DNA from: Hydrogenophaga sp.
GTDB lineage: Bacteria; Pseudomonadota; Gammaproteobacteria; Burkholderiales; Burkholderiaceae_C
Direction: 5' to 3'
NCBI GenBank assembly: GCA_018333605.1
Contig: JAGXSV010000073.1
Coordinates: 1-64,000 of the forward strand
Length of the DNA stretch: 64,000 nucleotides
Of the stretch, positions 11,934-46,682 are shown piece after piece. A program made the translations under genes and the position numbers. The notes below the pieces were generated by a model. The model was not told where the DNA came from. It was given only the letters and a program-made list of their open reading frames with translations, and searched no databases. How positions within the stretch are numbered: position 1 is the stretch's first letter; the number at the start of each line of letters is the position of its first letter.

Positions 11934-11965
11934 CGCCGTCACGCCCATCAATTTCTGGAGACCCC

Positions 11966-17792: not shown

Positions 17793-17830
17793 TATGTCTA
17801 ACTACTGGTTTACACCAACTACCCGCACTT

Positions 17831-21631: not shown

Positions 21632-21685
21632 CGGGCTTGGACGCCACTCACTCTCCTTCACGAACTTCAAAGACGAGGCATCACC

Positions 21686-25640: not shown

Positions 25641-25682
25641 CGGTCACGGTCACGTTCAGGCTCACGTTCAAGGAAAACCCAC

Positions 25683-26450: not shown

Positions 26451-26465
26451 TCGGGAGAAGGCGCA

Positions 26466-27578
26466 TCAGCGCCAGCCGCCGCTGCGGGCTGCGGGGGGCT
26501 GATCAAAGTGCGGGGGGCGCACCGACACGCTGGCACCGCCATGCAGGCGCGGCTGCACGGCACCCAGGAAGTTGTACGGGAACAGCGCCGGCAGAGCACC
26601 CACCTGGTCCAGCCGGTCGCGCAGTTCGGGCGGCAATTCAAAGTCCAGGGCGCGCAAGCCGTCTTCCAGTTGTTCCAGCCGGGTGGCGCCGAGAATCACC
26701 GAACTGAGGGCAGGGCGACCCGACAGCCAGTTGATGGCCACCCGTGCCATGGGTTGCCCCAAGGCCTTGGCGACGGACTCCAGCGCTGCAACGATCTCCC
26801 AGTTGCGGGGTGTCAGCTTGTTCAACGCAGGCGTCGCCACCGCAGCGGTGGTCTTGATGCGGCCAGCCTGTTGGGCCTGCGCCTCGACGTTGGGCAGGTA
26901 CTTTCCGGACAACAGCCCTCCGCCCAAGGGGCTCCAGGCCACCAGCCCGAGCCCCAGCTCCTGGCACATGGCCGGAAACTCGTATTCGATGCCGCGCTGC
27001 ACCAGCGAATACTCCAGCTGCACGGCGCATGGCCCTTCGAGGCCGTGACCCTGAGCCAGGGTGGTGATGCGGGCGGCGTACCAGGCGGGCACGTCCGAGA
27101 GCGCCCAGTGGCGGATCTTTCCGGCCCGCACCAGGTCGTCCATGCTGCGAAGCACCTCCTCTGCCGGCGTGATGCCATCCCACGCATGCAGGTAGTAAAG
27201 ATCCACGTGGTCTGTTTTCAGCCGCGTCAGCGAGGCTTCGATGGAGCGCATCAGGTTCTTGCGGCCGTTGCCCGCAGCGTTCGGGTTGCCTTGCGGGTTC
27301 TGGTGGTTGAAGCTGTATTTGGTGGCCAGGACCACGCGATCACGCGTGCCCGTTTCGGCCATGAGCTCGCCCAGCCAGGTTTCGGCGGTCCCTTGGGTGT
27401 AGATGTCGGCGGTGTCGATGAAATTGCCACCCGAGGCCAGGTAGGTGTCGAACATCGAGCGCGCGGTCGCCCGGTCGCAACCCCAGCCGTTTTCGGTGCC
27501 AAACGTCATGGTGCCCAGCGCAAGGCGCGAGACGCGCAAACCGGTGCGGCCCAGCAGGTGGTACGGGGTGGGTGTCAT
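26466..27578 (-). CDS. Aldo/keto reductase
   Basis: NADPH-dependent TIM-barrel reductase, 370 residues from ATG 27578, with AGGAG eight bases upstream. The catalytic tetrad is visible: Asp in FIDTADIYTQG with Tyr five residues on, Lys in LATKYSF, and His in YYLHAWDG. The C-terminal cofactor region contains ILGATRLEQLEDGL. About 30 residues longer at the C-terminus than typical members, with a Pro/Arg-rich end. It is divergent from the amidohydrolase at 27718 and shares a control region with it. Confidence 0.88.
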   Translation of the reverse strand: MTPTPYHLLGRTGLRVSRLALGTMTFGTENGWGCDRATARSMFDTYLASGGNFIDTADIYTQGTAETWLGELMAETGTRDRVVLATKYSFNHQNPQGNPNAAGNGRKNLMRSIEASLTRLKTDHVDLYYLHAWDGITPAEEVLRSMDDLVRAGKIRHWALSDVPAWYAARITTLAQGHGLEGPCAVQLEYSLVQRGIEYEFPAMCQELGLGLVAWSPLGGGLLSGKYLPNVEAQAQQAGRIKTTAAVATPALNKLTPRNWEIVAALESVAKALGQPMARVAINWLSGRPALSSVILGATRLEQLEDGLRALDFELPPELRDRLDQVGALPALFPYNFLGAVQPRLHGGASVSVRPPHFDQPPAARSGGWR

Positions 27579-27603
27579 CGGATGCTCCTGATCTTGTTTT
27601 GTA

Positions 27604-27648
27604 TTAATACAGATTGACAAAAAGTGTTCAATCATTAGACTGTTCGAT
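27604..27648. promoter_or_regulatory. Overlapping divergent promoters with two TGTTC boxes
   Basis: Plus strand: TTGACA (27614) and TAGACT (27636), 16-bp spacer, with TGTTCA (27625-27630) in its centre. Minus strand: TTGAAC (27631-27626) and TATTAA (27609-27604), also 16-bp spacer. A second box, TGTTCGAT, starts at 27641, 16 bases after the first. The two promoters overlap, so one bound regulator could switch both genes. Confidence 0.6.
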
Positions 27649-27717
27649 CCCTGCTCATGTCAAGTACGGGTGGCCGCTCGAGGGCCCTTTCCTCGTCTCT
27701 TCCCACTGTTTCAAATC

Positions 27718-28737
27718 ATGCTGATCGACGCCCACGCCCACCTGATCACCCCCGGAATGCTCAATCGCCATGCCTTCTGGGGGCCGTTCATGAAGATGCA
27801 GGGTTTCACCGTCGGAAACTTTTCGCTGGGTACAAAACAGAAATCCAAGGCGGCCAGCGATGAAGAGGCGGAAGCGAACCTGTTGGCGAAGATGACGCAC
27901 GCCTCGCGCCGTGAGTTGATGGCACAGCGGGGCGTGGACCAGATCGTGGTGTCCACCCCGTCGCATGCGTTCATGTACTGGGCGGACGACTTCGGCAGCG
28001 AGTACGCGCGCATCTGCAACGAAGAGATGTCCGCCTATTGCGCCCAGGACCCGGCGCACTTTGCCTTCTGGGCCCACGCCAACCTGGCCGAGCCCGCTGA
28101 AGCCGCGCGCGAGATCGAGCGCGCCGTGACGCAACTCGGGGCCAAGGGGGTTTGTGTGGGCGGCGCCAACTTCAAGGGCTTGCAGGCCTATAGCGAGGAA
28201 CTGTTCCCCGTCTGGGAAGCCGCCACCCGGCTGGACGTTCCGCTGATGGTGCATGGCTACAACCAGTCTGTGTGGTGGGGCGACAAGCACGCGGAAGACC
28301 GCTTTGAAACCACCTCGATCGTGGGCGACTGCGTCGATGAGACCCTGTTTTTCTGGTACCTGATCTGTGGTGGTGCACTGGACGTTTTCCCCACGCTGAA
28401 AACCTACATCAACCACGCCGGGGGCATGTCGGTGTTCCAGCTCGGTCGTCTGGCCGAGCTGAACAAGTCGATGGCACCCGACGCCCGCAACAAGCGCCCG
28501 TTCATGGATTACCTGCCCAGTTTCTGGTTCGATCTGGATGTGCACCACCCGGCCCTGCGTCGCGCGGTGGTGGAGGTGGTGGGTGCTGACCAGGTCCTTT
28601 ACGGCACCAACTTTGGCGGTGCCTACGACAACGGTGACCTGACCGCCGGGCTCGGCCTGTCGGACGCCGACGTGGCCAAGATCCGCAGCGGGAATGCGCG
28701 CCGTCTGCTGAAACTCGACGCCCCCGTCGCGGGGTAA
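27718..28737 (+). CDS. Amidohydrolase family protein (paralogue A, Asp-to-Asn variant)
   Basis: Metal-dependent hydrolase or decarboxylase of the amidohydrolase-2 (ACMSD-like) family, 339 residues. HxH metal motif in MLIDAHAHL; His in VHGYNQSV; His in YINHAGGMS. At the strand-8 position, where the family normally has Asp (GTDYP-like), it reads YGTNFGG, an Asn. This change is shared with the paralogue at 42665. The start ATG 27718 lacks a clear ribosome-binding site; a GTG at 27670 is a weaker option. Such enzymes can decarboxylate or cleave C-C or C-N bonds of cyclic compounds. The reaction here is unknown. Confidence 0.85.
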   Translation: MLIDAHAHLITPGMLNRHAFWGPFMKMQGFTVGNFSLGTKQKSKAASDEEAEANLLAKMTHASRRELMAQRGVDQIVVSTPSHAFMYWADDFGSEYARICNEEMSAYCAQDPAHFAFWAHANLAEPAEAAREIERAVTQLGAKGVCVGGANFKGLQAYSEELFPVWEAATRLDVPLMVHGYNQSVWWGDKHAEDRFETTSIVGDCVDETLFFWYLICGGALDVFPTLKTYINHAGGMSVFQLGRLAELNKSMAPDARNKRPFMDYLPSFWFDLDVHHPALRRAVVEVVGADQVLYGTNFGGAYDNGDLTAGLGLSDADVAKIRSGNARRLLKLDAPVAG

Positions 28738-29127
28738 CAGGCTTTGTCCTCAGCCGGCGCCAGGTCTGGCTGCTGGTGTGGATCACCCCGTTATAGGGGG
28801 GCACTGGCCCTTCATCAAGTTGGTTGTCGGAGCCTGCCCCGAGGTGCCGTTGCAGGCCTGTCCATGCTGCTGAGCCTGCCTTGTCTATCGGGTGGGCAAG
28901 TCAATGCATGAGCCTCTGCGTGTACCCCGGAGGCATCGCCTTGCGGTCGACTAGGACAGAATCCGATCAACTGCTCAAAAATCTGAAAAAGACCCTAAAA
29001 GTTTGAGGTAGATCAAGGGCGCACATGATTCGATTCCGGGTAAACCCTTGTAAGTTATACACAAACAATAAAACTGTCTTAAATTAGTTTCCATGCCTGC
29101 AATGGTGCTGGCTCCAAGGAGACTGAT
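28738..29127. promoter_or_regulatory. Control region upstream of the first Rieske oxygenase
   Basis: A 390-bp gap. The first part contains a weak CCCC/GGGG hairpin near 28784-28797 without a T run. From about 28970 the DNA becomes AT-rich. GGTAAACCCTTG at 29039-29050 is repeated exactly at 40515-40526 and, as GTTAACCCTTG, before the second Rieske gene at 34984. It overlaps a possible -35 (TTGTAA, 29048). TGTCTTAAA at 29075-29083 also occurs in the promoter at 37921. The start codon has an AAGGAG site. No other gene is seen here. Confidence 0.5.
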
Positions 29128-30528
29128 ATGTTGACGCGTAGCAATCCGGTGTTGGCCGATGGAACCAAGATCTCGGACCTCATCAACCTGGACACCCGTG
29201 AAGTGAAGATGCGGGTTTTGTCCGATACCGAGCTGTACCAGCTCGAGATGGAAAAAATCTTCGCCAAGACGTGGGTATTTCTGGCCCACGAGACGGAAAT
29301 ACCCAACTCGGGTGATTTTGTTCAGCGGGACATGGGATCGGATTCGGTCCTTGTCACGCGCGACCGCGAAGGCTCGGTGCATGTGGTGCTCAACGCCTGT
29401 ACCCACCGGGGCATGAAGGTGTCCACCCTGGACATGGGCAATACGCAGGCCCACATGTGCATTTACCACGGCTGGGCCTTCAAGCCCAACGGTGACTTCA
29501 TTGGTGCACCCGTCGATAAAGAGTGCATGCACGGGAAGATGATGAGCAAGGCAGAGCTCTCATTGACCAAAGCCCGTGTGGCGATCTATGGCGGCATGAT
29601 CTTCGCCACCTGGAACATCGAAGGTCCGTCGTTTGACGAATTCCTGGGCGATGCCAAGTTTTACTACGACACCATGTGGTGCCGCACCACCAAAGGCATG
29701 GAAGTGCTGGGCCCGCCGCAACGCTTCATCATCAAGGCCAACTGGAAGACTGCGGCTGAGCAGGGGGCTTGCGACGGCTACCACACGCTGACCTTGCACC
29801 GCTGGCTGGGGGAGATCGGCCCTTACGCGAAGAAGCCCGGTGCCGAGGGCGGCGGCGCTGACCTGACCCCGGAGATGTACGGTGTTGAAGTCTGGACCGA
29901 CCACGGCCACACCATGCGCTGCATCGATCTGGACCGCAAGGTGCGTCGCATCACCGGCCAGGACCCGTCCGAGCTGACACCCGAGCAGAAGCTGGCCGTG
30001 CTGCCGCCCCCAGGGTTGACACCGGAGATGATTCCCGAGGTGGTGAGCCGCCTCTCGCCCGAGCAGATCCGGGTGATGAGCTCCAACCCGCCGCAGGTGG
30101 GCAACTTTTTCCCCAACGGCCTGTTCGAGTTTCTCTATCTGCCCACGGCCGACGGCAAGGTGGTCAGTGCCATGGCGTTGCACACCTATGTCCCCATGGG
30201 GCCGGACAAGTTCATGTTCATGAACTGGATCCTGGCAGAAAAGGACACCCCCCCCGAGCAGAAGGCCGCCATGCTGCGCATTTCCTGCCAGTTGCTGGGT
30301 ACCTCCGGCATGGTCGAGCAGGACGATTCCGACACCTGGCCGCACCAGACCATCGTGTCCAAGGGTGCCATGAGCAGGAACATCACGCTGAAGTACCAGG
30401 CGAAATATGAGACCGGCAAGCCCGACGGTTGGCCCGGTCCCGGCCATGTGGGCAGCGGCTTTACCAAGGACGACACCAACTGGAGCTTCTGGCAGTACTG
30501 GCACGAACTGATGACTCAGGCGTCTTGA
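29128..30528 (+). CDS. Rieske non-heme iron oxygenase, alpha subunit (copy 1)
   Basis: Catalytic subunit of a ring-hydroxylating oxygenase, 466 residues. Rieske [2Fe-2S] ligands are Cys91, His93, Cys111 and His114 (CTHRG and CIYHGW). The mononuclear iron site is His219 and His224 with the bridging Asp216 in CDGYHTLTLH; the distal carboxylate is probably in EQDDSDTW. It hydroxylates an aromatic or alicyclic substrate with O2 and electrons from a ferredoxin. The beta subunit follows 37 bases later. A same-length paralogue with identically placed ligands lies at 35099. Sequence gives no substrate; this pair belongs to the alpha3beta3 dioxygenase type. Confidence 0.95.
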   Translation: MLTRSNPVLADGTKISDLINLDTREVKMRVLSDTELYQLEMEKIFAKTWVFLAHETEIPNSGDFVQRDMGSDSVLVTRDREGSVHVVLNACTHRGMKVSTLDMGNTQAHMCIYHGWAFKPNGDFIGAPVDKECMHGKMMSKAELSLTKARVAIYGGMIFATWNIEGPSFDEFLGDAKFYYDTMWCRTTKGMEVLGPPQRFIIKANWKTAAEQGACDGYHTLTLHRWLGEIGPYAKKPGAEGGGADLTPEMYGVEVWTDHGHTMRCIDLDRKVRRITGQDPSELTPEQKLAVLPPPGLTPEMIPEVVSRLSPEQIRVMSSNPPQVGNFFPNGLFEFLYLPTADGKVVSAMALHTYVPMGPDKFMFMNWILAEKDTPPEQKAAMLRISCQLLGTSGMVEQDDSDTWPHQTIVSKGAMSRNITLKYQAKYETGKPDGWPGPGHVGSGFTKDDTNWSFWQYWHELMTQAS

Positions 30529-30565
30529 GTTGCCCATGCCAGCCCCACATCACCAGGAGATCACC

Positions 30566-31135
30566 ATGCTTGCCCATTTGCTCGAACCCACACCCTTGCC
30601 ACCTACCGTGCGCAGCAACCGCCTGCCCGTCGGTAGCCCGTTGTACAACGAATGCGTTGAGTTCCTCATTGATGAAGCCGAAATGCTCGATGAGCTTCGC
30701 TTTGCCGAATGGAGCCAACTTCTGGCGCAGGACATTGAATACAACGTTCCCCAGCGCTTGACACGGCCCGTGCGCATGCAGGACGGCACCATCATCCGCA
30801 CGGTCCAGCACATGCACGACAACCACGCGTCGTTGATGCTGCGCGTGCGCCGCATCACGGAGACCCGCAGTGCTTGGTGCGAAGACCCGCCGTCGCGTAC
30901 GCGCCGCTTGGTCAGCAACGTGCGTGTCTACAGGACCGAAAAGCCGAATGAAATTAAGGTGCAGAGCTACATGCTGCTCACCCGGAACCGGTTCGACTTC
31001 GATTACTTTGACCTCATCCCCTGTGACCGGCACGACGTGTTGCGCAAGGACGGAGACACCCTGCAATTGGCGCGGCGCGAGGTCCTGATCGACCAATCCG
31101 TGCTCGGAACGCCCAACCTGGGCATCTTCCTTTGA
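30566..31135 (+). CDS. Rieske oxygenase beta subunit (copy 1)
   Basis: Small structural subunit of the alpha3beta3 oxygenase, 189 residues, NTF2-like fold. Family markers are the RRxxxTRSAWCEDPPSRTRRLVSN region, where the Rieske beta motif RxxxG/S-xxWxEDPPSRxRRxVxN is typical, and the closing VLGTPNLGIFL. Start ATG 30566 with AGGAG seven bases upstream; a TTG at 30530 is less likely. Compared with copy 2 it has an N-terminal extension of about ten residues. Confidence 0.93.
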   Translation: MLAHLLEPTPLPPTVRSNRLPVGSPLYNECVEFLIDEAEMLDELRFAEWSQLLAQDIEYNVPQRLTRPVRMQDGTIIRTVQHMHDNHASLMLRVRRITETRSAWCEDPPSRTRRLVSNVRVYRTEKPNEIKVQSYMLLTRNRFDFDYFDLIPCDRHDVLRKDGDTLQLARREVLIDQSVLGTPNLGIFL

Positions 31136-31171
31136 TCTGTCCTCCCACCCTCTGCTGATCAGGATCAAAAA

Positions 31172-32452
31172 ATGACCACCACCTACCGCTCCGAAAAGCT
31201 CGAACAAGCGTTCGCAGCACTGTCGGCCAACTACCGGGGAACCGACATCGACCTGTATGCGGCGTGCCGCGACAGGCGCGCGAACACGCCGGTCGCGACC
31301 GGCGACTTCATGAACAGCATCGGCGTGCCCACCCATGCGGGCGCCAATCACGGCCACCCGACCTTCACCCTGTTCAAGTACAACGATGTCAAGACCGTGC
31401 TGCAGGATTCCGCCACCTTCAACAGCCGCTTCATGGCCAAGGGCTTCGGCAGCTTTTTCAGTGCCGATGGGCTGGTCATCACGGCCATGGACGGTGAAGC
31501 GCACCGCAAGGCCCGCGGGCTTTTGCAGCCGGTGTTCGCACCCGACGCGGTGCTGCCATGGCGCACCGCCATCGAACACCAGATTCGCGACGAATTCATC
31601 CTGCCGCTGGTGCCGGAAAAGCGCGCCGACCTGATGGACTTTGCCCTGTACTTTCCGATCCGGGTCATCTACGGACTGATCGGTTTTCCGGACGAAGAGC
31701 TGGGCAACTTTTACGAGTACGCGGCGATGGGACTGACCGTGCTGGCCGGTCCCAAGCTCGACCCGACCGAAGAGGCGGCATCCCGCGAACGCGCCATGAA
31801 GGCCACCAACACCTTGTACGAGGCCGTGATGGCGCTGGTCAAACGCCGCCGCGCCGAAGGTGCGCCCGGTGACGACCTGGTTTGCCGCCTGTTGCGTGCC
31901 GAGTTCGAGGGCCGCAAGCTCGATGACCACGAAATCACGACCTTCGCTCGCTCGATGGTGGCCGCCGGCGGTGAAACCACCACCCGCACCTTCAGCTCGA
32001 TCATGACGCTGCTGTTGCAGCGCCCTGCTTTGGTCGAGCGGGTTCGTAACGATCGCAGCCTGGTGGCCAAACTGATCGACGAGAGCGTGCGCTTCGAGCC
32101 GGTGTCCACGGTCAAGGTGCGCCAGGCTGTTCGCGATGTCGAGATCCGTGGTGTGCAGATTCCCAAGGATGCGATGGTGCAGTGCGTGGTCGCTTCGGCC
32201 AATCGCGACGAAGAGGTGTTCGACAACAGCGACACCTTTGACATCGATCGCCGCCAGAAGCCGTCCTTCACCTTCGGCTTCGGCCCGCACATGTGCATCG
32301 GCCAGTACCTGGCAAAGATGGAACTGTCCATCGCCATCAATGCGGTGCTCGACCTGTTCCCCAACGTTCGACTCGACCCGGACCGCCCCGCGCCCGTGAT
32401 CGCCGGAAGCATGTTGCGCGGCGCTTCCTCGGTTCCCGTGATTTGGGACTGA
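31172..32452 (+). CDS. Cytochrome P450 (paralogue 1)
   Basis: Soluble bacterial class I P450, 426 residues. I-helix oxygen-activation motif MVAAGGETTTRTF; K-helix ExxR in DESVRFEP; heme loop FGFGPHMCIGQ with Cys375 as axial ligand. Two more P450s in the window (55799 and 59738) have the same length, the same heme loop and the same VxxVxWD-type end, so all three are one subfamily. It lies directly after the Rieske beta gene, implying that both oxygenases act on the same compound. Electrons would come from a ferredoxin and probably the reductase at 13491. Confidence 0.93.
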   Translation: MTTTYRSEKLEQAFAALSANYRGTDIDLYAACRDRRANTPVATGDFMNSIGVPTHAGANHGHPTFTLFKYNDVKTVLQDSATFNSRFMAKGFGSFFSADGLVITAMDGEAHRKARGLLQPVFAPDAVLPWRTAIEHQIRDEFILPLVPEKRADLMDFALYFPIRVIYGLIGFPDEELGNFYEYAAMGLTVLAGPKLDPTEEAASRERAMKATNTLYEAVMALVKRRRAEGAPGDDLVCRLLRAEFEGRKLDDHEITTFARSMVAAGGETTTRTFSSIMTLLLQRPALVERVRNDRSLVAKLIDESVRFEPVSTVKVRQAVRDVEIRGVQIPKDAMVQCVVASANRDEEVFDNSDTFDIDRRQKPSFTFGFGPHMCIGQYLAKMELSIAINAVLDLFPNVRLDPDRPAPVIAGSMLRGASSVPVIWD

Positions 32453-32463
32453 AGACCCTGACC

Positions 32464-32568
32464 ATGAAACGTGGCGTTCCAACGGTCGTCGACTTTGACG
32501 AACACGCCATCGACACCCTGATCGACCCGCCGGTGATCAGGCCCCCACACCTCTGCACATTCCTTTGA
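32464..32568 (+). CDS. Very small ORF (34 aa) between P450 and amidohydrolase
   Basis: An ATG at 32464, 11 bases after the P450 stop, opens a 34-codon frame beginning MKRGVPTVVDFDEHAID and ending at 32568, 13 bases before the next gene. No strong ribosome-binding site precedes it. It is listed because a second tiny ORF at 33908 in the same operon begins similarly (MKQRNDVPCQVDF). It could be a translated microprotein, a leader that couples translation, or chance. I do not recognise a family. Confidence 0.3.
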   Translation: MKRGVPTVVDFDEHAIDTLIDPPVIRPPHLCTFL

Positions 32569-32581
32569 TCTGGAGACCCTC

Positions 32582-33892
32582 ATGAAACTCGACGACCTCA
32601 TTCTTGTCAGCGTGGACGACCACGCGATCGAACCGCGCGGTGCTTTTGACCGCCACATGCCAGCCAAATTCAAGGGCCGCGAGCCCAAGGTGGTGCAAAG
32701 CAAGGGCCGTGATGTCTGGGTCTTTGAAGGCCGTGCCACGGGCTACATGGGCCTGAACTCGGTGGTGGGTCGGCCGAAGGACGAATACGGCATGGAGCCT
32801 CTGGGCTATGAACACATGCGCCGCGGCACCTGGGATATCAAAGCCCGTGTCGAGGACATGAACGCCAACGGCGTTCTCGGGTCGATCTGCTTTCCGACCT
32901 TTCCCGGTTTCGCAGGTCAACGCTTCCAGCAGTACAAGGACGCGCGGGAGGTCTCGTTTGCAGCCATCCAGGCCTACAACGACTGGCACCTGCACGATTG
33001 GTGCAATGCCGCACCGGGTCGGTTCATTCCACTGAGTCTGATTCCCTGGTGGGACGGTGCATTGGCGGCTCAGGAAATCGGGCGCATGGCGAAACTCGGC
33101 GTTCACGCGATTTCGCTCTCGGACAACCCGGCACTGCACGGATTCCCGTCGATCCACTCTGACCACTGGGACCCGGTATGGCAGGCCTGCGCGGACAACG
33201 ACGTCGTGATCTGCTGCCACATCGGTACCGGCGTCAAGGCCGAGCATGCCTCGGACCTCACGCCGATCGATGCCTGGATCACCTCGATGCCGATCTCGAT
33301 CGCCAACTCGGCCGCCGACTGGATCTGGGCACCCATGTGGAAGAAATACCCCAACCTGCGCATGGCCTTGTCCGAGGGCAGCATCGGGTGGATTCCCTAT
33401 CTGCTGGAGCGCGCCGACTTCACCTACCGGCACCACCACGAGTGGACCAACACCGACTTCGGCGGCGGAAAGCCCAGCGATGTTTTCAGAAAGCACATCA
33501 TCACCTGCTTCATAGAAGACGAATTTGGCCTTCGCAATCTGGCCGACATCGGTGAAGACAAGGTGACCTGGGAATGCGACTACCCGCACTCCGACTGCAC
33601 CTGGCCGGGTTCCCCGGAGATCTTCCATGCCCAGACCCAGCACCTGACCGATGTGCAGATCGACAAGATCGGCCACCTCAATGCCATGCGGGAGTTCTCC
33701 TATGACCCGTTCTCGATTTTGGGACGCGAGAACTGCACGGTGGGCGCGCTGCGGGCGCAGGCCAAGCATGTGAGTGTGGAGCCCATGTTGGGCATGGGAG
33801 GGGCCAAGCCGGTGCGTGTGGCCGGTAAGCCCGTGACGTCGGGCGACATCAACAAGATGTTTGCCGATGCAGATGCCGAAACCGCGCTGTAA
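32582..33892 (+). CDS. Amidohydrolase family protein (type B)
   Basis: Amidohydrolase-2 family enzyme, 436 residues. The N-terminus reads VSVDDHAIEP, the D-x-H form of the metal motif common in this subgroup; later ligands appear as ICCHIGTG (His) and the strand-8 Asp in ECDYPHSDCTWP, which is retained, unlike in the other two amidohydrolases of the window. About 90 residues longer than those. Members of this subgroup are frequent near Rieske and P450 genes of terpenoid or aromatic pathways, but I know of no firmly assigned reaction. It starts at ATG 32582 with TGGAG upstream. Confidence 0.87.
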   Translation: MKLDDLILVSVDDHAIEPRGAFDRHMPAKFKGREPKVVQSKGRDVWVFEGRATGYMGLNSVVGRPKDEYGMEPLGYEHMRRGTWDIKARVEDMNANGVLGSICFPTFPGFAGQRFQQYKDAREVSFAAIQAYNDWHLHDWCNAAPGRFIPLSLIPWWDGALAAQEIGRMAKLGVHAISLSDNPALHGFPSIHSDHWDPVWQACADNDVVICCHIGTGVKAEHASDLTPIDAWITSMPISIANSAADWIWAPMWKKYPNLRMALSEGSIGWIPYLLERADFTYRHHHEWTNTDFGGGKPSDVFRKHIITCFIEDEFGLRNLADIGEDKVTWECDYPHSDCTWPGSPEIFHAQTQHLTDVQIDKIGHLNAMREFSYDPFSILGRENCTVGALRAQAKHVSVEPMLGMGGAKPVRVAGKPVTSGDINKMFADADAETAL

Positions 33893-33907
33893 CCCAAGGC
33901 GAACCAG

Positions 33908-33997
33908 ATGAAACAACGCAACGATGTGCCATGTCAGGTCGATTTCCGGCATTATGACCATGTCGGGCTGAACCTTGACCAGCAGGCGTTCGCCTGA
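33908..33997 (+). CDS. Very small ORF (29 aa) coupled to the MDR reductase gene
   Basis: A 29-codon frame from ATG 33908 starts 15 bases after the amidohydrolase and ends with TGA whose last base is the A of the next gene's ATG (TGATG at 33995-33999). This coupling suggests the frame is translated, perhaps only to allow reinitiation. It begins MKQRNDVPCQVDFRHYDH, resembling the small ORF at 32464. No family recognised. Confidence 0.35.
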   Translation: MKQRNDVPCQVDFRHYDHVGLNLDQQAFA

Positions 33998-34923
33998 TGC
34001 GCGCCGCTGTCATCACCGAGCGCGGCCTGGGACCGGTCCTGCAGGACTTTCCTGCTCCGCAAGCACGCGAGGGCGCGACCTTGATCAAGGTCGACACCGC
34101 CGGACTGGGAGGCTGGGACGTTCTGGGCGCCTACCGTCTGGGGGTGCAATTCCCTTGCGTCATTCGTGGCGAGGGGGTCGGCCGTGCGTCGGATGGGCGC
34201 CGGGTCTATTTTGGTGAGCGCTCGGTGGCGCCCTTTGGCGCCTGGGCCGAGCAAACCCTGGTGCCGACCGAAGAGGTGTGGGACGTGCCCGACGATGTGG
34301 ACGATGTGCTCGCCATCACCATGGGCATCGCGGGCACGGGCGCGCTGCTGCCGCTGGAGCAGGCCGCTATCAAGCCCGGCGAGAACGTGTTGATCCTCGG
34401 CGCGACCGGAACGCTGGGGCAGATCGCGCTTCAGCTCGCGCGCATTCTGGGGGCGGGTCGTGTGGTGGGGGCGGCCCGAGATGCGGCCGCGCTGGAACGC
34501 CTGCGCGCCCGCGGCCTGGCCGATGCCGTGGTGGCGCTGGGCAGCGACGACGATGCCGCCGCCCTGAAGGCCGTGGCGGGGGAGGGCTTCGACGTGGTGC
34601 TCGATGGCGTCTGTGGACCGCCCCTGCTCGCTGCCCTGAAGGCCACACGCTGGGGGGCACGCATCCTCACCATCGGCACCGGCGCCGGGCGCGACATCCA
34701 GCTCAACATCGCCGATCTGCTGTTCCGAACGCTCAGCTGTGTGGGCACTGGTCAGCGTTCACCGAGTGATCGTGAGGCCACCTGGCGCAGGCTCTTGCAG
34801 CTGGCACGTGAACACCAGATCACTTTCGATCATGTGGGTTACCGCTTCGATCAGATGCCTGATGCCTGGGCGGCGCAGGTGGCGGGGCCTCATGCCAAGA
34901 TCACGGCCTCCTTTCGGGGCTGA
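33997..34923 (+). CDS. MDR family (quinone-oxidoreductase-like) dehydrogenase/reductase
   Basis: Medium-chain dehydrogenase/reductase of 308 residues, shorter than the usual 320-340. Substrate domain with RGEGVGRA and GAWAEQTLVP; Rossmann motif ILGATGTLGQIALQLA near residue 133; DGVCGPPLLAALKAT after it. No structural zinc Cys cluster and no catalytic Cys-x-His pair are visible, so it is a zinc-less reductase. Probably reduces an enone or oxidises an alcohol in the pathway. It ends the Rieske/P450/amidohydrolase operon. Confidence 0.85.
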   Translation: MRAAVITERGLGPVLQDFPAPQAREGATLIKVDTAGLGGWDVLGAYRLGVQFPCVIRGEGVGRASDGRRVYFGERSVAPFGAWAEQTLVPTEEVWDVPDDVDDVLAITMGIAGTGALLPLEQAAIKPGENVLILGATGTLGQIALQLARILGAGRVVGAARDAAALERLRARGLADAVVALGSDDDAAALKAVAGEGFDVVLDGVCGPPLLAALKATRWGARILTIGTGAGRDIQLNIADLLFRTLSCVGTGQRSPSDREATWRRLLQLAREHQITFDHVGYRFDQMPDAWAAQVAGPHAKITASFRG

Positions 34924-34983
34924 TGCGCATGCTGTGGATGGGCTGATCCAGCAGCAGGGCAATGAGTGGGGTAGAAGATCGGT

Positions 34984-35020
34984 GTTAACCCTTGTTTTTT
35001 GCCGCATTTTGCAAATACGA
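34984..35020 (+). promoter_or_regulatory. Promoter candidate of the second Rieske oxygenase
   Basis: GTTAACCCTTG (34984-34994) matches the GGTAAACCCTTG motif at 29039 and 40515. The TTG of the motif begins a possible -35 (TTGTTT, 34992), followed by 17 bases and ATACGA. The motif plus weak -10 would suit an activator-dependent promoter. The rest of the gap up to 35098 is AT-rich and has no gene. Confidence 0.45.
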
Positions 35021-35098
35021 GGGGCTTTATATGTACACAGTTGGATGAATTGTTTATATTAAGTCTTCACCGCTGCTTAACAGATGAAGGAGACGCGC

Positions 35099-36499
35099 AT
35101 GCTGAGCCCGACACACCTCACACTTTCCGATGGAACCAAGGTCTCTGACCTGGTCAATGTCGCCACCCGGGAGGTGCAGATGCGCGCACTCTCGGATCCC
35201 GAGCTCTACGAGATGGAGATGGAACAGATCTTCGGCAAGATCTGGGTATTCCTCGGTCACGAATCTGAGATTCCGAACTCCGGCGATTTCATCACCCGCG
35301 ACATGGGTTCCGACTCGGTGCTGGTCACGCGCGACAAGTCGGGCGAGGTCCATGTGCTGCTCAACCTGTGTTCGCACCGCGGTATGCGGGTTTCAACCCT
35401 GGATGCGGGCAACACCCAGATTCACACTTGCATCTACCACGGTTGGGCATTCCGCCCGAACGGTGCCTTTCTCGGTGCGCCGGTCGAAAAAGAGACGATG
35501 CACGGCAAGATGATGAGCAAGGATGAGCTGGGTCTGAAGAAGGCCCGGGTCACGCTGTATGGTGGGCTGATCTTTGCGACCTGGAACATCGACGGGCCTT
35601 CGTTTGATGACTTTCTCGGCGATGCCAAGTGGTACTACGACATTCTTTTCAAGCGCACGGACAAAGGCATGGAAGTGCTGGGTCCGCCGCAACGCTTCAC
35701 GGTTCGCGCCAACTGGAAGGCTGCCGGCGAGCAATCGGCCGCCGACGGGTACCACACGCTGACCCTGCACCGCTGGCTCGGCGAGGTCGGCAATTACTCC
35801 AAGAAGGGTGAGGGTGAGGGCGGCGGCGGTGATCTGAGCCCAGAGATGTACGGCGTGGAAGTGAGCTCTCCCCATGGCCATGCGTTGCGCTGCATCGATC
35901 TGGGGCGAAAGATCCGCCGCATGACGGGGCTGGACCCCGATGTGCTCAGCGTTGACGAAAAGCTCAACGCCTTGCCACCGGCCGGTATGACCAAGGACAT
36001 GGTCGAGCAACTCAAACGCAACCTTACCCCTGAACAGCTGAAGGTGCAGACCAGCATGCCACCCCAGGTGGGCGGCATTTTCCCGAACGTGTTGTTTGGC
36101 TTTGTCTACATCCCCCAGGCCGATGGCACCGTGGTCGGCTCGATGACCATGCACGCCTATGTGCCTAAAGGGCCGGACAAACTGGAGTTCGTGAACTGGA
36201 TCTTCGCCGAGAAGGACGCGCCGCAAGATCTGCGCGACAAGATGCTCAAGCAGACCATCCAGTTGTTTGGTACGTCGGGCATGGTTGAGCAGGACGACTC
36301 CGACACCTGGCCTCACATGACCCTGGCCGCCAAGGGCGCACAGGGCAAGAAGGCGACGCTGAAGTACCAGGCGGTCTACGAAACCGGCGCCCCCGAAGGC
36401 TGGCCCGGCCCTGGCATCGTCAATGAGGGCTTCACCAAGGACGACACGCAGTGGCACTGGTGGATGTATTGGCGCCAGCTCATGGGCGGCAATGTCTGA
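35099..36499 (+). CDS. Rieske non-heme iron oxygenase, alpha subunit (copy 2)
   Basis: Second ring-hydroxylating oxygenase alpha subunit, also 466 residues from ATG 35099 (AAGGAG seven bases upstream; the in-frame ATG at 35084 contains the ribosome-binding site itself and is rejected). Rieske ligands Cys91, His93, Cys111, His114; iron ligands Asp216, His219, His224 in ADGYHTLTLH. It is strongly similar to copy 1 along its whole length; differences cluster in the loop after the iron ligands and in the 250-330 region that lines the substrate pocket in this family. It may act on a later intermediate, or on the other ring or isomer of the substrate. Confidence 0.95.
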   Translation: MLSPTHLTLSDGTKVSDLVNVATREVQMRALSDPELYEMEMEQIFGKIWVFLGHESEIPNSGDFITRDMGSDSVLVTRDKSGEVHVLLNLCSHRGMRVSTLDAGNTQIHTCIYHGWAFRPNGAFLGAPVEKETMHGKMMSKDELGLKKARVTLYGGLIFATWNIDGPSFDDFLGDAKWYYDILFKRTDKGMEVLGPPQRFTVRANWKAAGEQSAADGYHTLTLHRWLGEVGNYSKKGEGEGGGGDLSPEMYGVEVSSPHGHALRCIDLGRKIRRMTGLDPDVLSVDEKLNALPPAGMTKDMVEQLKRNLTPEQLKVQTSMPPQVGGIFPNVLFGFVYIPQADGTVVGSMTMHAYVPKGPDKLEFVNWIFAEKDAPQDLRDKMLKQTIQLFGTSGMVEQDDSDTWPHMTLAAKGAQGKKATLKYQAVYETGAPEGWPGPGIVNEGFTKDDTQWHWWMYWRQLMGGNV

Positions 36500-36559
36500 A
36501 CCCTCTTCCAGCCCCCGAGCTCTCGTCGCAATTCGATACCCCCATTTTCGGAGATTCTC

Positions 36560-37096
36560 ATGAGTGAAGCCCAAGGCGCCCTGGTGCCGATTGGATCGCC
36601 TGTTTACAACCAGATCCTCCAATTCCTGTACGTCGAAGCGCGACTGCTGGATGAAACCCGCCTCAAGGAATGGGGCGACACGCTGGCACAGGATCTGATC
36701 TACACCGCCCCCTTGAGGGAAACCCGGCCGGTGAGTCAGCAGGCGGCGTCGGTGGTGCGCACCATGCAGCACTACCACGACGACTGGCGTTCCGTGATGG
36801 GGCGCATTGTCCGCCTCACCGGTACCAAGAGCGCCTGGGCGGAAGACCCCCCATCGCGCACGCGGCGGCTGGTGACCAATGTCCTGGTTGAAGAGACCGA
36901 CAAGCCCCAGGAATACAGCGTGCGCAGCTACCTGCTGGTGACGCGCAGCCGTTTCAACTTCGACGAGTTTGACCTGATCAGCGCCGAGCGCCGGGATGTG
37001 CTGCGGGTCGATGGCGAGAGCTTCAAGCTGGCGCGCCGTGAGATCCTGCTGGATCAGGCTGTGCTGGGAACTCCGAACCTGGCCATCTTCCTCTGA
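36560..37096 (+). CDS. Rieske oxygenase beta subunit (copy 2)
   Basis: Structural beta subunit of 178 residues. Markers: SVMGRIVRLTGTKSAWAEDP, PSRTRRLVTNVLV, and the end VLGTPNLAIFL. Start ATG 36560 with a CGGAG site upstream. Paired with the copy-2 alpha gene 60 bases before. Followed by a hairpin shared with the convergent DUF2889 gene. Confidence 0.93.
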   Translation: MSEAQGALVPIGSPVYNQILQFLYVEARLLDETRLKEWGDTLAQDLIYTAPLRETRPVSQQAASVVRTMQHYHDDWRSVMGRIVRLTGTKSAWAEDPPSRTRRLVTNVLVEETDKPQEYSVRSYLLVTRSRFNFDEFDLISAERRDVLRVDGESFKLARREILLDQAVLGTPNLAIFL

Positions 37097-37104: not shown

Positions 37105-37129
37105 ATCGCCTTCAGACCTTGAAGGCGAT
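37105..37129. terminator. Hairpin between convergent Rieske beta and DUF2889 genes
   Basis: Perfect 10-bp stem ATCGCCTTCA / TGAAGGCGAT with a 5-base loop, spanning the stop codon of the DUF2889 gene. There is no long T run on either strand, so it is a possible bidirectional terminator or mRNA-end stabiliser. Confidence 0.6.
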
Positions 37130-37852
37130 CCAGTCCTGGTCGTCCCGGCACAACTGGTCGGGCTGCCAGGTGAAGTTCCAGGTCGAACCCACCTGGCGCA
37201 GAGCCAGAGGGGCCTGTTCAGGCTGTTGCGCATAGCAGGCGCCGCTCAATTGGGCGTGCCGTTGGGCATCAAGTGGGCGGTTCTTGCCCATGGATATCAC
37301 CGCACATCGCCGCAACACCAGGGCCGCCTCGGCCATGTCTTCGCTCAGGTGGCTCAGAGCCCAGCGCGCCATGCCCTGGCGCAAACCGATGCCGCTGTAG
37401 GGCGGCGGTCCTTCGATCTCAAGATCCTGGACATCCCAGGCCAGCAGCCGGGTGCCGTCTCGGTCCAGGGTGGCATGGGTGCGCCCGTCGACCCGCAAAG
37501 GTATCTCGATGTCATAGCGCCGTTCCTGCAGAGCGCGTGCCGCGGCCGCGGCCGTCAGGCCACTGAGTTCCAGCATGTGGGTGCATTGCTGGCTGGCATC
37601 GACCTGGCGCATCACCGCGTGTGCACTGGTGGCTGGGACCGTACCCACCAGCTGCTGGAGCTGGTCTGCCGCAGAGGGGCACAGGCTGTAGGGGTGGCGG
37701 GGCGCTTGCGCGTGCAGGGAAGCGATGAGGCCATCCCGGACCACCAGTTCAACCCGGAAATGGTGGAAGTCGTCCTCAAGCGCAGCCCGGTACCGGATGC
37801 CGATCTCCATGGGGTCGGTGGCGATCAGAATGCGTCGTCGGAACAGAGGCAT
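37112..37852 (-). CDS. DUF2889 family protein
   Basis: A 246-residue protein that fits DUF2889: an N-terminal half with YRAALEDDFHHFRVELVVRDG and HAQAPRHPYSLCPSAADQLQQLVG, the family core with a single conserved Cys, then a C-terminal helical part. DUF2889 genes recur in clusters with Rieske oxygenases and CoA ligases, but no activity is known to me. It is oriented against the oxygenase genes and lies divergent from the SDR at 37975, so it may share control with it. Confidence 0.75.
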   Translation of the reverse strand: MPLFRRRILIATDPMEIGIRYRAALEDDFHHFRVELVVRDGLIASLHAQAPRHPYSLCPSAADQLQQLVGTVPATSAHAVMRQVDASQQCTHMLELSGLTAAAAARALQERRYDIEIPLRVDGRTHATLDRDGTRLLAWDVQDLEIEGPPPYSGIGLRQGMARWALSHLSEDMAEAALVLRRCAVISMGKNRPLDAQRHAQLSGACYAQQPEQAPLALRQVGSTWNFTWQPDQLCRDDQDWIAFKV

Positions 37853-37919
37853 GCGGACTTTCTAGGGTTTCTACCGAGCAGGAAATCCACGATGTTCACG
37901 TCTTCCCGGCTGACACGAG

Positions 37920-37960
37920 TTGTCTTAAAGTGTACGATAAATAAGAATGTGTTCAATATA
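37920..37960 (+). promoter_or_regulatory. Promoter with TGTTCAATATA box upstream of SDR
   Basis: TTGTCT (37920) and AAGAAT (37943) with a 17-bp spacer form a fair sigma-70 promoter. TGTTCAATATA at 37950-37960 overlaps the expected transcription start and is identical to 3161-3171 before the DUF1302 operon, where the flanking ATAAATA is also shared. A repressor site is the simplest reading. Confidence 0.6.
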
Positions 37961-37974
37961 TATCTGGAGACTCG

Positions 37975-38775
37975 ATGGATCTGCTGAAAGACAAAGTGGC
38001 CTTGATCACAGGGGCCGGGGGCGGCATAGGCCGAGGCGTCGCTCGATGCTACGCACGCGAAGGTGCGGCGGTGCTGATTGCCGAGCTTGACCCGGTGACA
38101 GGGGCTGAGGCCGAACTCGAGCTCAAGCAGATGGGTGCCCGCGCCCTGTTCGTTCCGACCGACGTGTTGCGCAAGGAAAGTGTGGAGGCTTCGGTCCAGG
38201 CTGCGGTGGACCATTTCGGGGGGCTCGACATCCTGGTCAACAACGCCTTTGTGCCTTCGGAGAACGTGTTGCTGGAGGACAAGACGGACGCGATGCTGGA
38301 GCGCACCCTGACCTCGACCGTCTGGGCCAGCTGGTGGGCGATGCGTGCGGCCATGCCGCACATGCGCCAGCGCGGTGGTGGGCGCATCATCAACTTCACC
38401 TCGATTGATGTGGACATTGGCGCCTGGCAACACGCGGACTACAACACGGGCAAATCGGGTGTGGTCGGGTTGACCCGCAGCGCGGCGGCCGAGTGGGGCC
38501 GTTTCAACATCACCTGCAACGCCATTGCGCCGACCGCCATGGGCGCCACCTTCCACAAGCTGGCCGCTGAAATCCCCGGTTTTGCCGAGCGCTCGGCGGC
38601 AGCACGACCGCTGGGTCGATCCGGTGACCCGGAGCTCGACATCGGGCCTGTGGTCGTTTTTCTGGGTTCGGAGATGGCCCGGTTCGTGACCGGGATCACC
38701 ATGCACGTGGACGGCGGCCTGCACCTGCCCGGCTACAACTCGCGCCCGGCCCATGTGCCGGTGCGCGAATACTGA
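37975..38775 (+). CDS. SDR family oxidoreductase
   Basis: Classical SDR of 266 residues: cofactor motif TGAGGGIGRGVARC, VNNAF at the NNAG position, Ser 13 before Tyr (NFTSIDVDIGAWQHADYNTGK), and HVDGG near the end. The Tyr motif is YNTGK rather than YxxSK, which is acceptable. An ATG at 37975 has TGGAG upstream. Single-gene unit, ending convergently with the CoA ligase gene at a hairpin. Confidence 0.87.
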   Translation: MDLLKDKVALITGAGGGIGRGVARCYAREGAAVLIAELDPVTGAEAELELKQMGARALFVPTDVLRKESVEASVQAAVDHFGGLDILVNNAFVPSENVLLEDKTDAMLERTLTSTVWASWWAMRAAMPHMRQRGGGRIINFTSIDVDIGAWQHADYNTGKSGVVGLTRSAAAEWGRFNITCNAIAPTAMGATFHKLAAEIPGFAERSAAARPLGRSGDPELDIGPVVVFLGSEMARFVTGITMHVDGGLHLPGYNSRPAHVPVREY

Positions 38776-38780
38776 TGGAC

Positions 38781-38808
38781 CAAGAAGCGCTGGGTTTAGC
38801 GCTTCTTG
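38781..38808. terminator. Hairpin between convergent SDR and CoA ligase genes
   Basis: An 11-bp perfect stem CAAGAAGCGCT / AGCGCTTCTTG with a 6-base loop. It includes the stop codon region of the CoA ligase gene (38796-38798). No T run follows, so termination efficiency is uncertain. Confidence 0.65.
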
Positions 38809-40427
38809 ACCTGGATGCCGCTGGTCTCCTGATCCCAGGTGGTCGGCGTGCAGCCCTGGTCACGCAGTTCGTACTTGAGAACCCGCCCCTGTGGGTTCTT
38901 CGGGAGGCTGTCGCGGAATTCGATGTAGCGCGGCAACGCGTAATAAGGCACCGCGTCAATGGCCCACCGGAACAGGTCCTCGGGACTCAGCGTCATGTCG
39001 GGGCGCAGCATGGCCGTCACCTTGACGTCGTCCTCTCCCTTGTCAGACGGCACGGCGTGCACAGCGACTTCAGCGAGGGCCGGATGACGCGCAAACGCCG
39101 CCTCCATCTCGAAGCTGGAAATGTTCTCGCCGCGCCGGCGCAAGTAGTCCTTCTTGCGGTCCACGAAGTAGAAAAAACCTTGCTCGTCGAACTTGCCAAT
39201 GTCCCCGGTGTGCAACCAGAGATTGCGCATGATCTTCAGCGTGTCTTCTGGCCGGCGCCAGTAGCCCATGAACATGATGTCCGGGCGCAGCGGTCGCACC
39301 ACGATCTCGCCGGAAGTCCCGGTCGGTACCTCGCGGTCGAGGTCGTCCACGATGCGCACGTCGAAGTCGGGAATGCGAGTGCCCGACGAGCCGGGCGCTG
39401 CGTATTCACCCCCGGCCAGCGAGGTGATAACCGCCGCCTCCGTGAGCCCGTAGCCATTGCCGCCCACCTGTTTGGCGCCAAAGCGTTCGCGCCAGATGGC
39501 TTTGACTTCTTCGGTGAACGGATTGCCACGCACCGTGTGGATCTGTCCCTTGCAGCGCTGTCCCGCTTCGGTGTCGGGCGCATTGGCCAGCATGGCGCCC
39601 ATGCTGCCCAGGATGGAGGCGATGGTCGCACCGCTGCGCTCCACCTCGGGCCAGAAATTCGACACCGAAAAGCGCGGCACAAAGGCGACACGGGCGCCGA
39701 CCAGGATCGACGCCAGCACGCCCACGCACATGGCGTTCATGTGGAACAGTGGCAGCGGCGTGATCGTGACGTCGTTTTCGTTGGCCGGACCGGCGCGCAG
39801 TTGCAGGCGCGCCAGGTTGCACATGTAGTTGTAGCTGATCATGCAGCCCTTGGACGGCCCGGTGGTGCCCGAGGTGTAGATGAGGCAAGCGAGTTCCCAG
39901 GGGTTGGGTTTGCGCTCGATCGCGCTGTCGTCATAACCCTGGTGCTCGCTGAGAGGTGCCAGTGGCAGGGTGCCACACTGTCCGTTGCCGGGCTCACCCC
40001 GGGTCAGCACCTGCTTCACGTCCGGCAGCCCATCCGAGACCGCCGCGATGCGTTCGACGTAGTTCGCTTCGCAGACCACCAATGCGGCTCCTGCATCGGC
40101 GATCTGGTGGCGCAGAAATTCGCCCTTGAGGGCCGTGTTGATGGGGACGCTGACAGCGCAAAGCTTGTTGATGGCGAACCAGCAGAGCACCGCGTCGACG
40201 TTGTTGTCGAGCATCGTCACCACGGTTTGCCCAGCTTGCACACCGAGTGCTGCAAACGAATGGGCCAAGCGGGTCGATTGGCGATCCACCTCACCGTAAG
40301 TATGAAATTCACCCGAAAAGTCGAGCAGAACCCGGTCAGGGTGTTTCGCTACCGCGCGTTCAAGCGCTGCAATGACCGTATCCTGTTGACCGAGAGACCA
40401 TGTGTCTGGGTTGCCAATGCCTGCCAT
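38796..40427 (-). CDS. AMP-dependent acyl-CoA ligase (paralogue 2)
   Basis: Adenylate-forming ligase of 543 residues from ATG 40427. P-loop YTSGTTGPSKGC, NGYGLTEA, HTGDIGKFDEQGFFYFVDRK and the C-terminal NPQGRVLKYELR with the catalytic Lys. Very similar to the ligase at 24012, including the TALKGEFLRHQIADAGAA segment, which suggests duplication within the cluster and action on related acids. The reading frame is open further upstream, but MAGIGNPDTW is the natural start. Divergent from the TetR at 40568. Confidence 0.9.
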   Translation of the reverse strand: MAGIGNPDTWSLGQQDTVIAALERAVAKHPDRVLLDFSGEFHTYGEVDRQSTRLAHSFAALGVQAGQTVVTMLDNNVDAVLCWFAINKLCAVSVPINTALKGEFLRHQIADAGAALVVCEANYVERIAAVSDGLPDVKQVLTRGEPGNGQCGTLPLAPLSEHQGYDDSAIERKPNPWELACLIYTSGTTGPSKGCMISYNYMCNLARLQLRAGPANENDVTITPLPLFHMNAMCVGVLASILVGARVAFVPRFSVSNFWPEVERSGATIASILGSMGAMLANAPDTEAGQRCKGQIHTVRGNPFTEEVKAIWRERFGAKQVGGNGYGLTEAAVITSLAGGEYAAPGSSGTRIPDFDVRIVDDLDREVPTGTSGEIVVRPLRPDIMFMGYWRRPEDTLKIMRNLWLHTGDIGKFDEQGFFYFVDRKKDYLRRRGENISSFEMEAAFARHPALAEVAVHAVPSDKGEDDVKVTAMLRPDMTLSPEDLFRWAIDAVPYYALPRYIEFRDSLPKNPQGRVLKYELRDQGCTPTTWDQETSGIQVKKR

Positions 40428-40567
40428 GTGAAAAGCTCCAAACCGTGACGAAAGCCACAGATTATTCTGTATATAGATACTAATTCTAAATGCAGATTTC
40501 ACAACGGATGTGCTGGTAAACCCTTGACTTTGCCCCGTTGCAGCAACTTCACCGACCTTCAGAAAGT
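40428..40567. promoter_or_regulatory. Divergent control region between CoA ligase and TetR genes
   Basis: AT-rich 140-bp region. It holds ATGCAGATTT (40490-40499), close to the ATGCAGAATTT element of 3205 and 59675, and GGTAAACCCTTG (40515-40526), identical to 29039-29050. The latter overlaps TTGACT (40524), a fair -35 for the TetR gene. TATATAGATACTAATTCTA near 40470-40488 is a weak dyad. The presence of two motif types shared with other promoters suggests that this region is a hub of the regulon. Confidence 0.5.
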
Positions 40568-41371: not shown

Positions 41372-41393
41372 CCCGGGCAGGCGGCGTACCCCG

Positions 41394-44583: not shown

Positions 44584-44602
44584 ACACTCAGAAAGAAATC
44601 AA

Positions 44603-46680: not shown

Positions 46681-46682
46681 CC

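Follow-up and report, generated by a model that had tools for sequence, protein, structure and literature searches.

We analysed a 64,000-nucleotide stretch of Hydrogenophaga sp. (contig JAGXSV010000073.1, positions 1 to 64,000; hereafter, the window), concentrating on two Rieske ring-hydroxylating oxygenases, A1/B1 and A2/B2. They are encoded within seven consecutive genes at 29128–37096, an approximately 8-kb slice of a cluster that fills most of the window. The Pfam matches confirm the content and order of these genes described in the original prediction, with Rieske and Ring_hydroxyl_A occurring twice, Ring_hydroxyl_B twice, and p450, Amidohydro_2, and ADH_zinc_N between them:

29128..30528, plus strand: alpha1 (A1), Rieske oxygenase alpha subunit of 466 aa, from the sister clade of DitA1 (Pfam Rieske and Ring_hydroxyl_A)
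30566..31135, plus strand: beta1 (B1), ring-hydroxylating beta subunit (PF00866), from ATG 30566 with GGAG upstream; listed open reading frame from 30530
31172..32452, plus strand: P450a, third CYP226-like cytochrome P450, in a clade of its own (PF00067)
32582..33892, plus strand: Amidohydro_2 protein adjoining A1 (PF04909)
33997..34923, plus strand: MDR (zinc-type) reductase (PF00107)
35099..36499, plus strand: alpha2 (A2), orthologue of DitA1, inside the DitA1 clade (Rieske and Ring_hydroxyl_A)
36560..37096, plus strand: beta2 (B2), orthologue of DitA2 (PF00866)

The duplicated oxygenase and the dit pathway

The two alpha subunits share 67% identity in a gap-free alignment over 462 residues, and the beta subunits 59% over 170 residues. 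Both alpha subunits are of 466 aa, alpha2 being counted from ATG 35099, shortly after a GGAG sequence (if read from 35084 as the longest open reading frame, it has 471 aa). The Rieske ligands C91-x-H93 and C111-x2-H114, residues D216, H219, and H224, and DDSD at 399–402 occupy the same positions in A1 and A2, so that each protein has the CxH–CxxH motif, the bridging aspartate, and the 2-His-1-carboxylate triad of alpha/beta ring-hydroxylating oxygenases, and each is accompanied by a beta subunit. Such a gap-free alignment with the metal ligands in register is not due to chance, and the predicted duplication of one ancestral oxygenase is supported. Neither alpha subunit reaches the cut-off of any curated NCBIfam oxygenase model (HcaE, BenA, AndAc, and others), the best scores being 249 and 256 bits for HcaE against the required 830. 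The solved structure nearest by sequence is naphthalene dioxygenase from Rhodococcus (PDB:2b1x), a distant relative, whose name refers to naphthalene.

The cluster was compared with the dit genes for degradation of abietane resin acids. The described dit gene types are ditF (sterol carrier-like), ditG (reductase), ditH (isomerase/decarboxylase), ditA1, ditA2, ditR (an IclR-family regulator), ditC, and ditA3 (PMC12628601). In P. abietaniphila, dehydroabietic acid is hydroxylated at C-7 by the P450 DitQ and then presumably converted to its 7-oxo form by a dehydrogenase. The 11,12-dihydrodiol is produced by DitA, and ring opening is attributed to DitC, DitQ and DitA alone being directly tied to pathway steps (PMC13063091). 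The name CYP226 comes from the title of a paper cited in PMC6891630.

A2 is 80% identical to the DitA1-type protein of P. abietaniphila ATCC 700689 and 76% identical to that of P. xenovorans LB400, and B2 is 69–73% identical to the beta subunits adjoining DitA1 in the respective loci (L046 and L040). We take ATCC 700689 to be strain BKME-9. In PMC6994688, ATCC 700689 is referenced to the BKME-9 paper. A tblastn search of these two loci with the window proteins showed that the neighbourhood of A2/B2 is alike (50–82% identity), all three having the common order of SCP2-type thiolase, OB-fold protein, SDR, FAH, A2, B2, DUF2889, SDR, CoA ligase, TetR, amidohydrolase, FAH, HCDH, and thiolase. Since, in addition, the genomes of P. 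abietaniphila and LB400 contain a single alpha subunit each at E ≤ 1e-60, A2/B2 are identified as DitA1A2 and, by analogy, should perform the DitA step.

The types ditF, ditG, and ditH lie beside ditA1 and ditA2 in the window (these letters are our own assignment from gene type and place), and the series from DUF2889 to CMD follows, as in the known dit cluster. There are three related P450s of the CYP226 type, two of them having orthologues in LB400 with 67–75% identity. No ferredoxin (in a motif scan) and no BphC-type gene was found in the window; in the same genome (G000, fragmented and 62% complete), another contig, C57, carries a ferredoxin, a BphC-type gene of the DitC type, and an IclR-family regulator, that is, the gene types of DitA3, DitC, and DitR. 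In Acidovorax temperans, the ferredoxin and DitC genes lie on the same contig as A2, approximately 38 kb downstream. The known dit cluster differs in that the window adds A1/B1, the third CYP226-like P450, and the copy of the amidohydrolase gene adjacent to A1, has an ACAD/APH block between ditH and ditA1, and leaves the ditA3 and ditC types to another contig. By gene content and sequence, the window is a dit cluster for abietane resin acids. Of the two kinds of compounds originally considered, aromatic and terpenoid, the latter is retained, and the suggestion of an undescribed degradation system is not supported, since A2 and its surroundings belong to the known pathway of abietane diterpenoids.

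Taking all genes together, we consider it likely that this is a dit-type cluster for growth on tricyclic resin acids, in which A2/B2 is DitA1A2, and A1/B1 is an old paralogue with the same type of activity towards a related substrate. In this scheme, a CYP226-type P450 would oxidize C7 ahead of the A2/B2 step; A2/B2 with the DitA3-like ferredoxin from C57, and probably the ferredoxin reductase of the window, would dioxygenate ring C at C11/C12; and DitC from C57 would then open the ring. A1/B1 would dioxygenate ring C before DitC on a related tricyclic substrate, letting more diterpenoids enter the shared lower pathway, and would replace DitA1 in some bacteria. In the window, A1, the third CYP226-like P450, and the amidohydrolase copy would constitute a parallel entry cassette with the same upstream control element. 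We infer the role and the substrate of A1, P450a, and the amidohydrolase from the sequence relations, clades, gene content, and shared element given below.

Clades and distribution of the two oxygenases

The alpha-subunit tree comprises 79 rows, as 11 of the 90 alpha sequences were identical to another one and had been taken out beforehand; the relatives are the best 80 of 156, among which L082 and L083 are the window's own copies. A1 lies outside the DitA1 clade, forming with 29 others a sister clade of 30 rows (support 100/99). A2 and 45 others form the DitA1 clade (46 rows, support 96/86), which holds the LB400 and P. abietaniphila proteins, the latter being identical to the alpha subunit of L047, which stood for both. 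Alpha subunits from Caulobacter and from Novosphingobium/Croceicoccus plasmids fall outside both clades under the midpoint root. The possibility, raised originally, that both alpha subunits belong to a clade of known substrate has therefore come true for A2, while A1 belongs to a sister clade for which no characterised member was found in the literature searched.

Comamonadaceae, Burkholderiaceae, Rhodocyclaceae, and Pseudomonadaceae have members in both clades; since the same four families are spanned, the duplication is old, and the side-by-side placement in the window secondary. A recent tandem duplication is ruled out, the A1/A2 split in the midpoint-rooted tree being older than the sampled genera. 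All seven genes follow in the same order in four loci, from an Aquabacterium metagenome-assembled genome (MAG), Acidovorax temperans, Simplicispira metamorpha, and Acidovorax sp. GW101-3H11. Much of the window's order is seen in Rubrivivax (L055), without the stretch from the SDR gene at 20882 through the MDR gene, and in Azohydromonas (L010) A1, B1, and the amidohydrolase gene are immediately 5' of A2 and B2, without P450a and MDR. When 399 genomes from the order were scanned, with at most four candidates scored per genome, a match at 1e-150 was obtained in the own genome only. As anticipated, no published cluster with exactly this gene order was found in the literature searched. In four loci from three genera (L005, L006, L007, and L079), the A2 proteins are identical and the A1 proteins nearly so, suggesting that the cluster was transferred recently.

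To see who carries which type, 34 genomes or records, picked by hand from the hit loci, were searched whole, and the resulting tallies are not frequencies. The type was assigned by identity to A1 (69–93% for the A1 type in the tree and 64–69% for the others), the second copies in G006, G007, G411, G414, G415, G419, G420, and G422 being outside the tree. Both types are present in 22 of the 34; six have A1 alone, namely, four Oxalobacteraceae genomes, one MAG, and one plasmid record from Massilia, searched without the chromosome of its host; and six have A2 alone, namely, LB400, P. abietaniphila, P. vancouverensis DhA-51, Rubrivivax, Polaromonas, and P. madseniana. Thus, A1 was not found in the genomes of LB400, P. 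abietaniphila, and P. vancouverensis DhA-51, all three being known abietane degraders (growth table in PMC6891630). The DitC type is found in 28 out of 28 genomes or records searched for it, and the DitF and DitH types in nine out of nine, all six with A1 alone being included in either set; four of the nine DitH matches contain one TGA, and the match on the Massilia plasmid stops at the annotated gene end.

The Massilia putida plasmid (NZ_CP019037) illustrates the A1-only condition. Like the window and its genome, it has A1/B1, the DitC, DitF, and DitH types, an IclR regulator, a ferredoxin, two P450s, and the DUF1302–DUF1329–YCF48–MMPL row; unlike the window, it has no A2/B2 found on the record. 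Its gene order is IclR, ferredoxin, DitC type, thiolase, OB-fold, SDR, FAH (DitH type), transporter, reductase, DUF2889, SDR, and TetR, so that the transporter and reductase genes occupy the ditA1A2 site between ditH and DUF2889, with A1/B1 elsewhere in the cluster, approximately 24 kb from the DitH gene. By its distribution, A1 looks like a stand-in for, or a parallel to, DitA1.

These data bear on the earlier proposal that the two copies act in sequence, attacking two rings of a single diterpenoid or catalysing two steps in its breakdown. The genes are adjacent in the window and its four close relatives, and 22 of the 34 genomes or records have both types, as would be expected in that case; yet the A2-only set includes three abietane degraders, and all six A1-only genomes or records, among them the four Oxalobacteraceae, hold the ditC, ditF, and ditH types. 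Since these abietane degraders do without A1, and these Oxalobacteraceae seemingly without A2, a second-ring or second-step role of A1 fits poorly, and we regard it as very improbable. No report of the A1-only Oxalobacteraceae growing on resin acids was met, no search by name having been made. Some carriers, such as Pseudomaricurvus alkylphenolicus, Zoogloea, Thauera, and Aromatoleum, might instead suggest that A1 attacks another class of compounds (e.g., steroids, hopanoids, or alkylated aromatics) and shares only the regulon and transporters with the dit genes; this is improbable, given that A1 is located inside dit-type clusters and that the ditC, ditF, and ditH types are kept in the six genomes or records where A1 occurs alone.

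Partners, active site, and upstream element

The CYP226-like P450s, each of whose rows had been named after the window P450 with the highest score ahead of tree building, form three groups, each of them one-sided in 100% of bootstrap trees. Two groups are the LB400 types, represented in the window by the genes at 59729 and 55799, and LB400 has two P450 matches at 1e-100. The third group is P450a, adjacent to A1, which shows 59–61% identity to the two P450 matches found in each of LB400 and P. abietaniphila and forms a separate clade (100/100). Orthologues of P450a with at least 73% identity are present in five of the 28 genomes or records searched, all carrying both A1 and A2; in a Zoogloea MAG (G006), no P450 match was found at 1e-100.

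Eight Pseudomonas and Stutzerimonas loci have A1, B1, and the amidohydrolase gene followed by a second copy of DitC, and these copies form one clade (100/100). Two DitC matches are seen in six of the 28 genomes or records, all of this A1-linked kind, the window's genome and most others having one DitC. The loci from P. resinovorans, P. mendocina, and Stutzerimonas (L015, L011, and L019) share with the window the A1 clade, the order A1–B1–amidohydrolase, and the presence of an A2 cluster, which in these loci is approximately 16–17 kb off; they differ from it in having their own DitC copy with A1, in A1 being on the strand opposite to A2, and in showing no match of the P450a type. Hence, judging from gene neighbourhoods, A1 tends to be accompanied by partners of its own in the preceding or following steps, though not in every lineage.

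The amidohydrolase at 32582 has a homologue with 77–78% identity in the dit regions of P. abietaniphila and LB400 and is, by sequence, a paralogue of another dit-linked gene. It had initially appeared specific to A1 (19 A1 loci against none of the A2-only loci), an observation that was dropped because most loci end approximately 10 kb from the oxygenase, and the homologue lies farther off in P. abietaniphila and LB400.

Comparison of the A1 and A2 clades revealed six alignment columns fixed differently and 208 fixed alike (at 95% in each clade). Variation of the iron-ligand segment 205–231 relative to the overall difference is 0.56 for A1 and 0.24 for A2 in nine paired genomes (of the 22 having both types), and 0.57 (29 rows) and 0.36 (45 rows), respectively, when all rows are considered, values for which no significance test was made. 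Residue 213 is glycine in the six rows of the window's A1 subclade and serine in A2 and the other A1 rows. This pattern suggests that A1 has been retuned within one general architecture rather than having acquired a new reaction.

The upstream regions of both oxygenases contain the element T..ACA-N13-TGT, whose dyad is also seen at another place:

29056..29084, plus strand: A1 upstream element, 5' of alpha1
35032..35060, plus strand: A2 upstream element, coinciding with a sigma-70-like promoter match
17776..17800, no strand assigned: the dyad again, between the gene for the OB-fold protein and that for the ditG-like SDR, at a place equivalent to that in Acidovorax (L089, 18959)

The element occurs at most 160 nt from the start in 28 of 29 A1 loci and 44 of 45 A2 loci, compared with 0.8–1.0% in dinucleotide shuffles; it was derived post hoc from upstream DNA of the window and its relatives, so that the sequences used for this provide no independent evidence, and the loci, being kin, cannot be counted as independent either. 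A stricter form, the full dyad (..TGT..A), is present in 21 of 29 A1 and 16 of 45 A2 loci, the A1 site of the window lacking it, and either form is seen in one of three outgroup loci. The site at 17776 and its Acidovorax counterpart are full dyads; others precede the ferredoxin gene in Acidovorax and the homologous amidohydrolase gene in LB400, P. abietaniphila, and Acidovorax, and occur in other places too. We infer a common regulator of A1 and A2, perhaps the IclR-family protein, and the conserved element offers a route to the remaining regulon. Two further motifs were not used: TGTCTTAA, with two matches, was equalled by three out of 100 shuffles, and GTWAACCCTTG, with three matches, had been derived from already seen sites and has few matches in relatives. 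In L088, an open reading frame at 6581–10096, not far from the ditC type, encodes a POR/DUF6537 protein resembling indolepyruvate ferredoxin oxidoreductase, and a full dyad starts 30 nt 5' of this frame; on the Massilia plasmid, too, a similarly annotated gene lies close to ditC.

The same results can be read as indicating isozymes for one substrate, 7-oxo-dehydroabietic acid, kept for dosage or for differing conditions. In agreement with this, 208 columns are fixed alike, the metal ligands among them, the upstream element is common to both, and A1 stands alone where A2 was not found; nevertheless, the old split retained in many genera, the A1-linked DitC copy and the third P450 clade, and the greater change near the iron site in A1 make it unlikely. 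A further possibility, which we put forward tentatively, is that A1/B1 with P450a or the DitC copy forms a second, separate entry branch into the known lower dit pathway, used for a class of tricyclic diterpenoids out of reach of DitA1, and that some bacteria have switched to it completely.

Several observations weigh against a related-substrate role of A1/B1. Just six fixed differences against 208 columns fixed alike would also fit two enzymes with the same substrate. Most A1 carriers searched (22 of 28) also have A2, and so A1 might serve the same molecule; among those with A1 alone, one is a MAG and one is a plasmid without the chromosome, where A2 may be missed. The A1-adjacent amidohydrolases group together in 64% of bootstrap trees only, so that a single clade is unsure, and Massilia-type clusters also carry a split Rieske/VanA_C gene pair that might matter there.

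The substrate of A1 is most likely a related tricyclic diterpenoid. Pimarane acids were considered as a candidate, which we leave open and do not adopt: pimarane-growing isolates are said to use abietanes as well, which speaks for it, in a source that terms the data on breakdown of pimarane-type acids sporadic (PMC6891630), whereas P. abieticivorans grows on isopimaric acid, and its dit cluster is said to be organised like that of P. abietaniphila (PMC10710418). With a defined sister oxygenase and strains having only A1 or only A2, the question of substrate range is open to knockouts. Resin acids are toxic in pulp-mill water, and the substrate range is therefore of practical use.

Duplication as such is not new, since dit islands have been described as mobile or present in several places (PMC6210171, PMC12369383), and duplication of certain dit genes in one island has been published for P. 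aeruginosa PA2192 (PMC3570484). As far as the literature searched is concerned, the sister clade, the occurrence of A1 alone, the clade of P450a, the DitC copy linked to A1, and the upstream element common to A1 and A2 are new.

Remaining genes of the cluster

The window as a whole encodes three members each of the P450 and Amidohydro_2 families and two each of the FAH-family proteins, CoA ligases, and thiolases. Apart from the genes listed above, it contains:

3340..12796, plus strand: row of DUF1302, DUF1329, YCF48, MMPL, VOC-like, ECH, and SDR genes; same row in the Massilia putida plasmid and Acidovorax
13491..14729, minus strand: FAD ferredoxin reductase (PF07992 and PF14759)
16104..17297, minus strand: SCP2-type thiolase, DitF-like (PF22691); 76–79% identity in LB400 and P. 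abietaniphila
17294..17740, minus strand: OB-fold-type thiolase partner; 62–64% identity at the same place in LB400 and P. abietaniphila; Massilia plasmid counterpart annotated as an OB-fold protein
17819..18526, plus strand: SDR, DitG-like (Pfam); 64–71% identity in P. abietaniphila and LB400
19113..20123, plus strand: FAH-family protein, DitH-like (PF01557); 72–77% identity in P. abietaniphila and LB400, where it is immediately 5' of DitA1
20882..28737, no single strand: block of SDR, ACAD, APH, CoA ligase, SDR, aldo/keto reductase (minus strand), and Amidohydro_2 genes between ditH and A1
37112..47210, no single strand: DUF2889 (minus), SDR, CoA ligase (minus), TetR, USP/hemerythrin (minus), Amidohydro_2, FAH, HCDH, thiolase, and CMD genes
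54751..55782, minus strand: conserved protein without a Pfam match, with a predicted AttH/kievitone-hydratase-like fold
55799..57088, minus strand: P450, orthologue of one CYP226-like P450 of LB400 (67%) and P. abietaniphila (70%)
59729..61018, plus strand: P450, with the other CYP226-like P450 from LB400 and P. abietaniphila as its orthologue (74–75%)

In LB400, a block comparable to that at 20882..28737 (SDR, ACAD, APH, SDR, Amidohydro_2) lies approximately 35 kb downstream of DitA1, and in P. abietaniphila the genes at 37112..47210, except USP/hemerythrin, likewise come after DitA1A2. The MDR reductase gene, which in the window precedes A2, is found in several other clusters next to SDR–ECH–VOC-like genes.

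The acyl-CoA dehydrogenase gene adjoins that of an APH-type kinase at 21686–24015 on the plus strand. Known pairs of this kind (LvaA/LvaC, ACAD10/11) phosphorylate and eliminate 4-hydroxyacyl-CoA groups, and by analogy the pair may fit a step after ring opening. The protein encoded at 54751–55782 is found in 16 other loci with 63–93% identity and adjoins a CYP226-like P450, which is of the P450a type instead in two Zoogloea loci (L102 and L103). The fold predicted for it is similar to those of AttH, kievitone hydratase, and lipocalin-type pericyclases (best Foldseek E 3.9e-8, TM 0.46, pLDDT 69), and it may act in the pathway as a hydratase or isomerase.

The split Rieske oxygenase is exemplified by L001 (23258–25203), where one open reading frame has the Rieske domain and the next one only the VanA C-terminal domain; the family of the former is present in nine A1 loci, and that of the latter in 10 A1 and five A2-only loci. 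The VOC-like protein of 321 aa at 10124–11089 (plus strand), with no Pfam match at 0.001, is found with 61–94% identity in 12 other loci, mostly adjoining the ECH gene. Finally, a glutathione peroxidase gene is located at 47207–47755 (plus strand), and such a gene also occurs in several dit-type clusters (Massilia, Caulobacter, Paraburkholderia).

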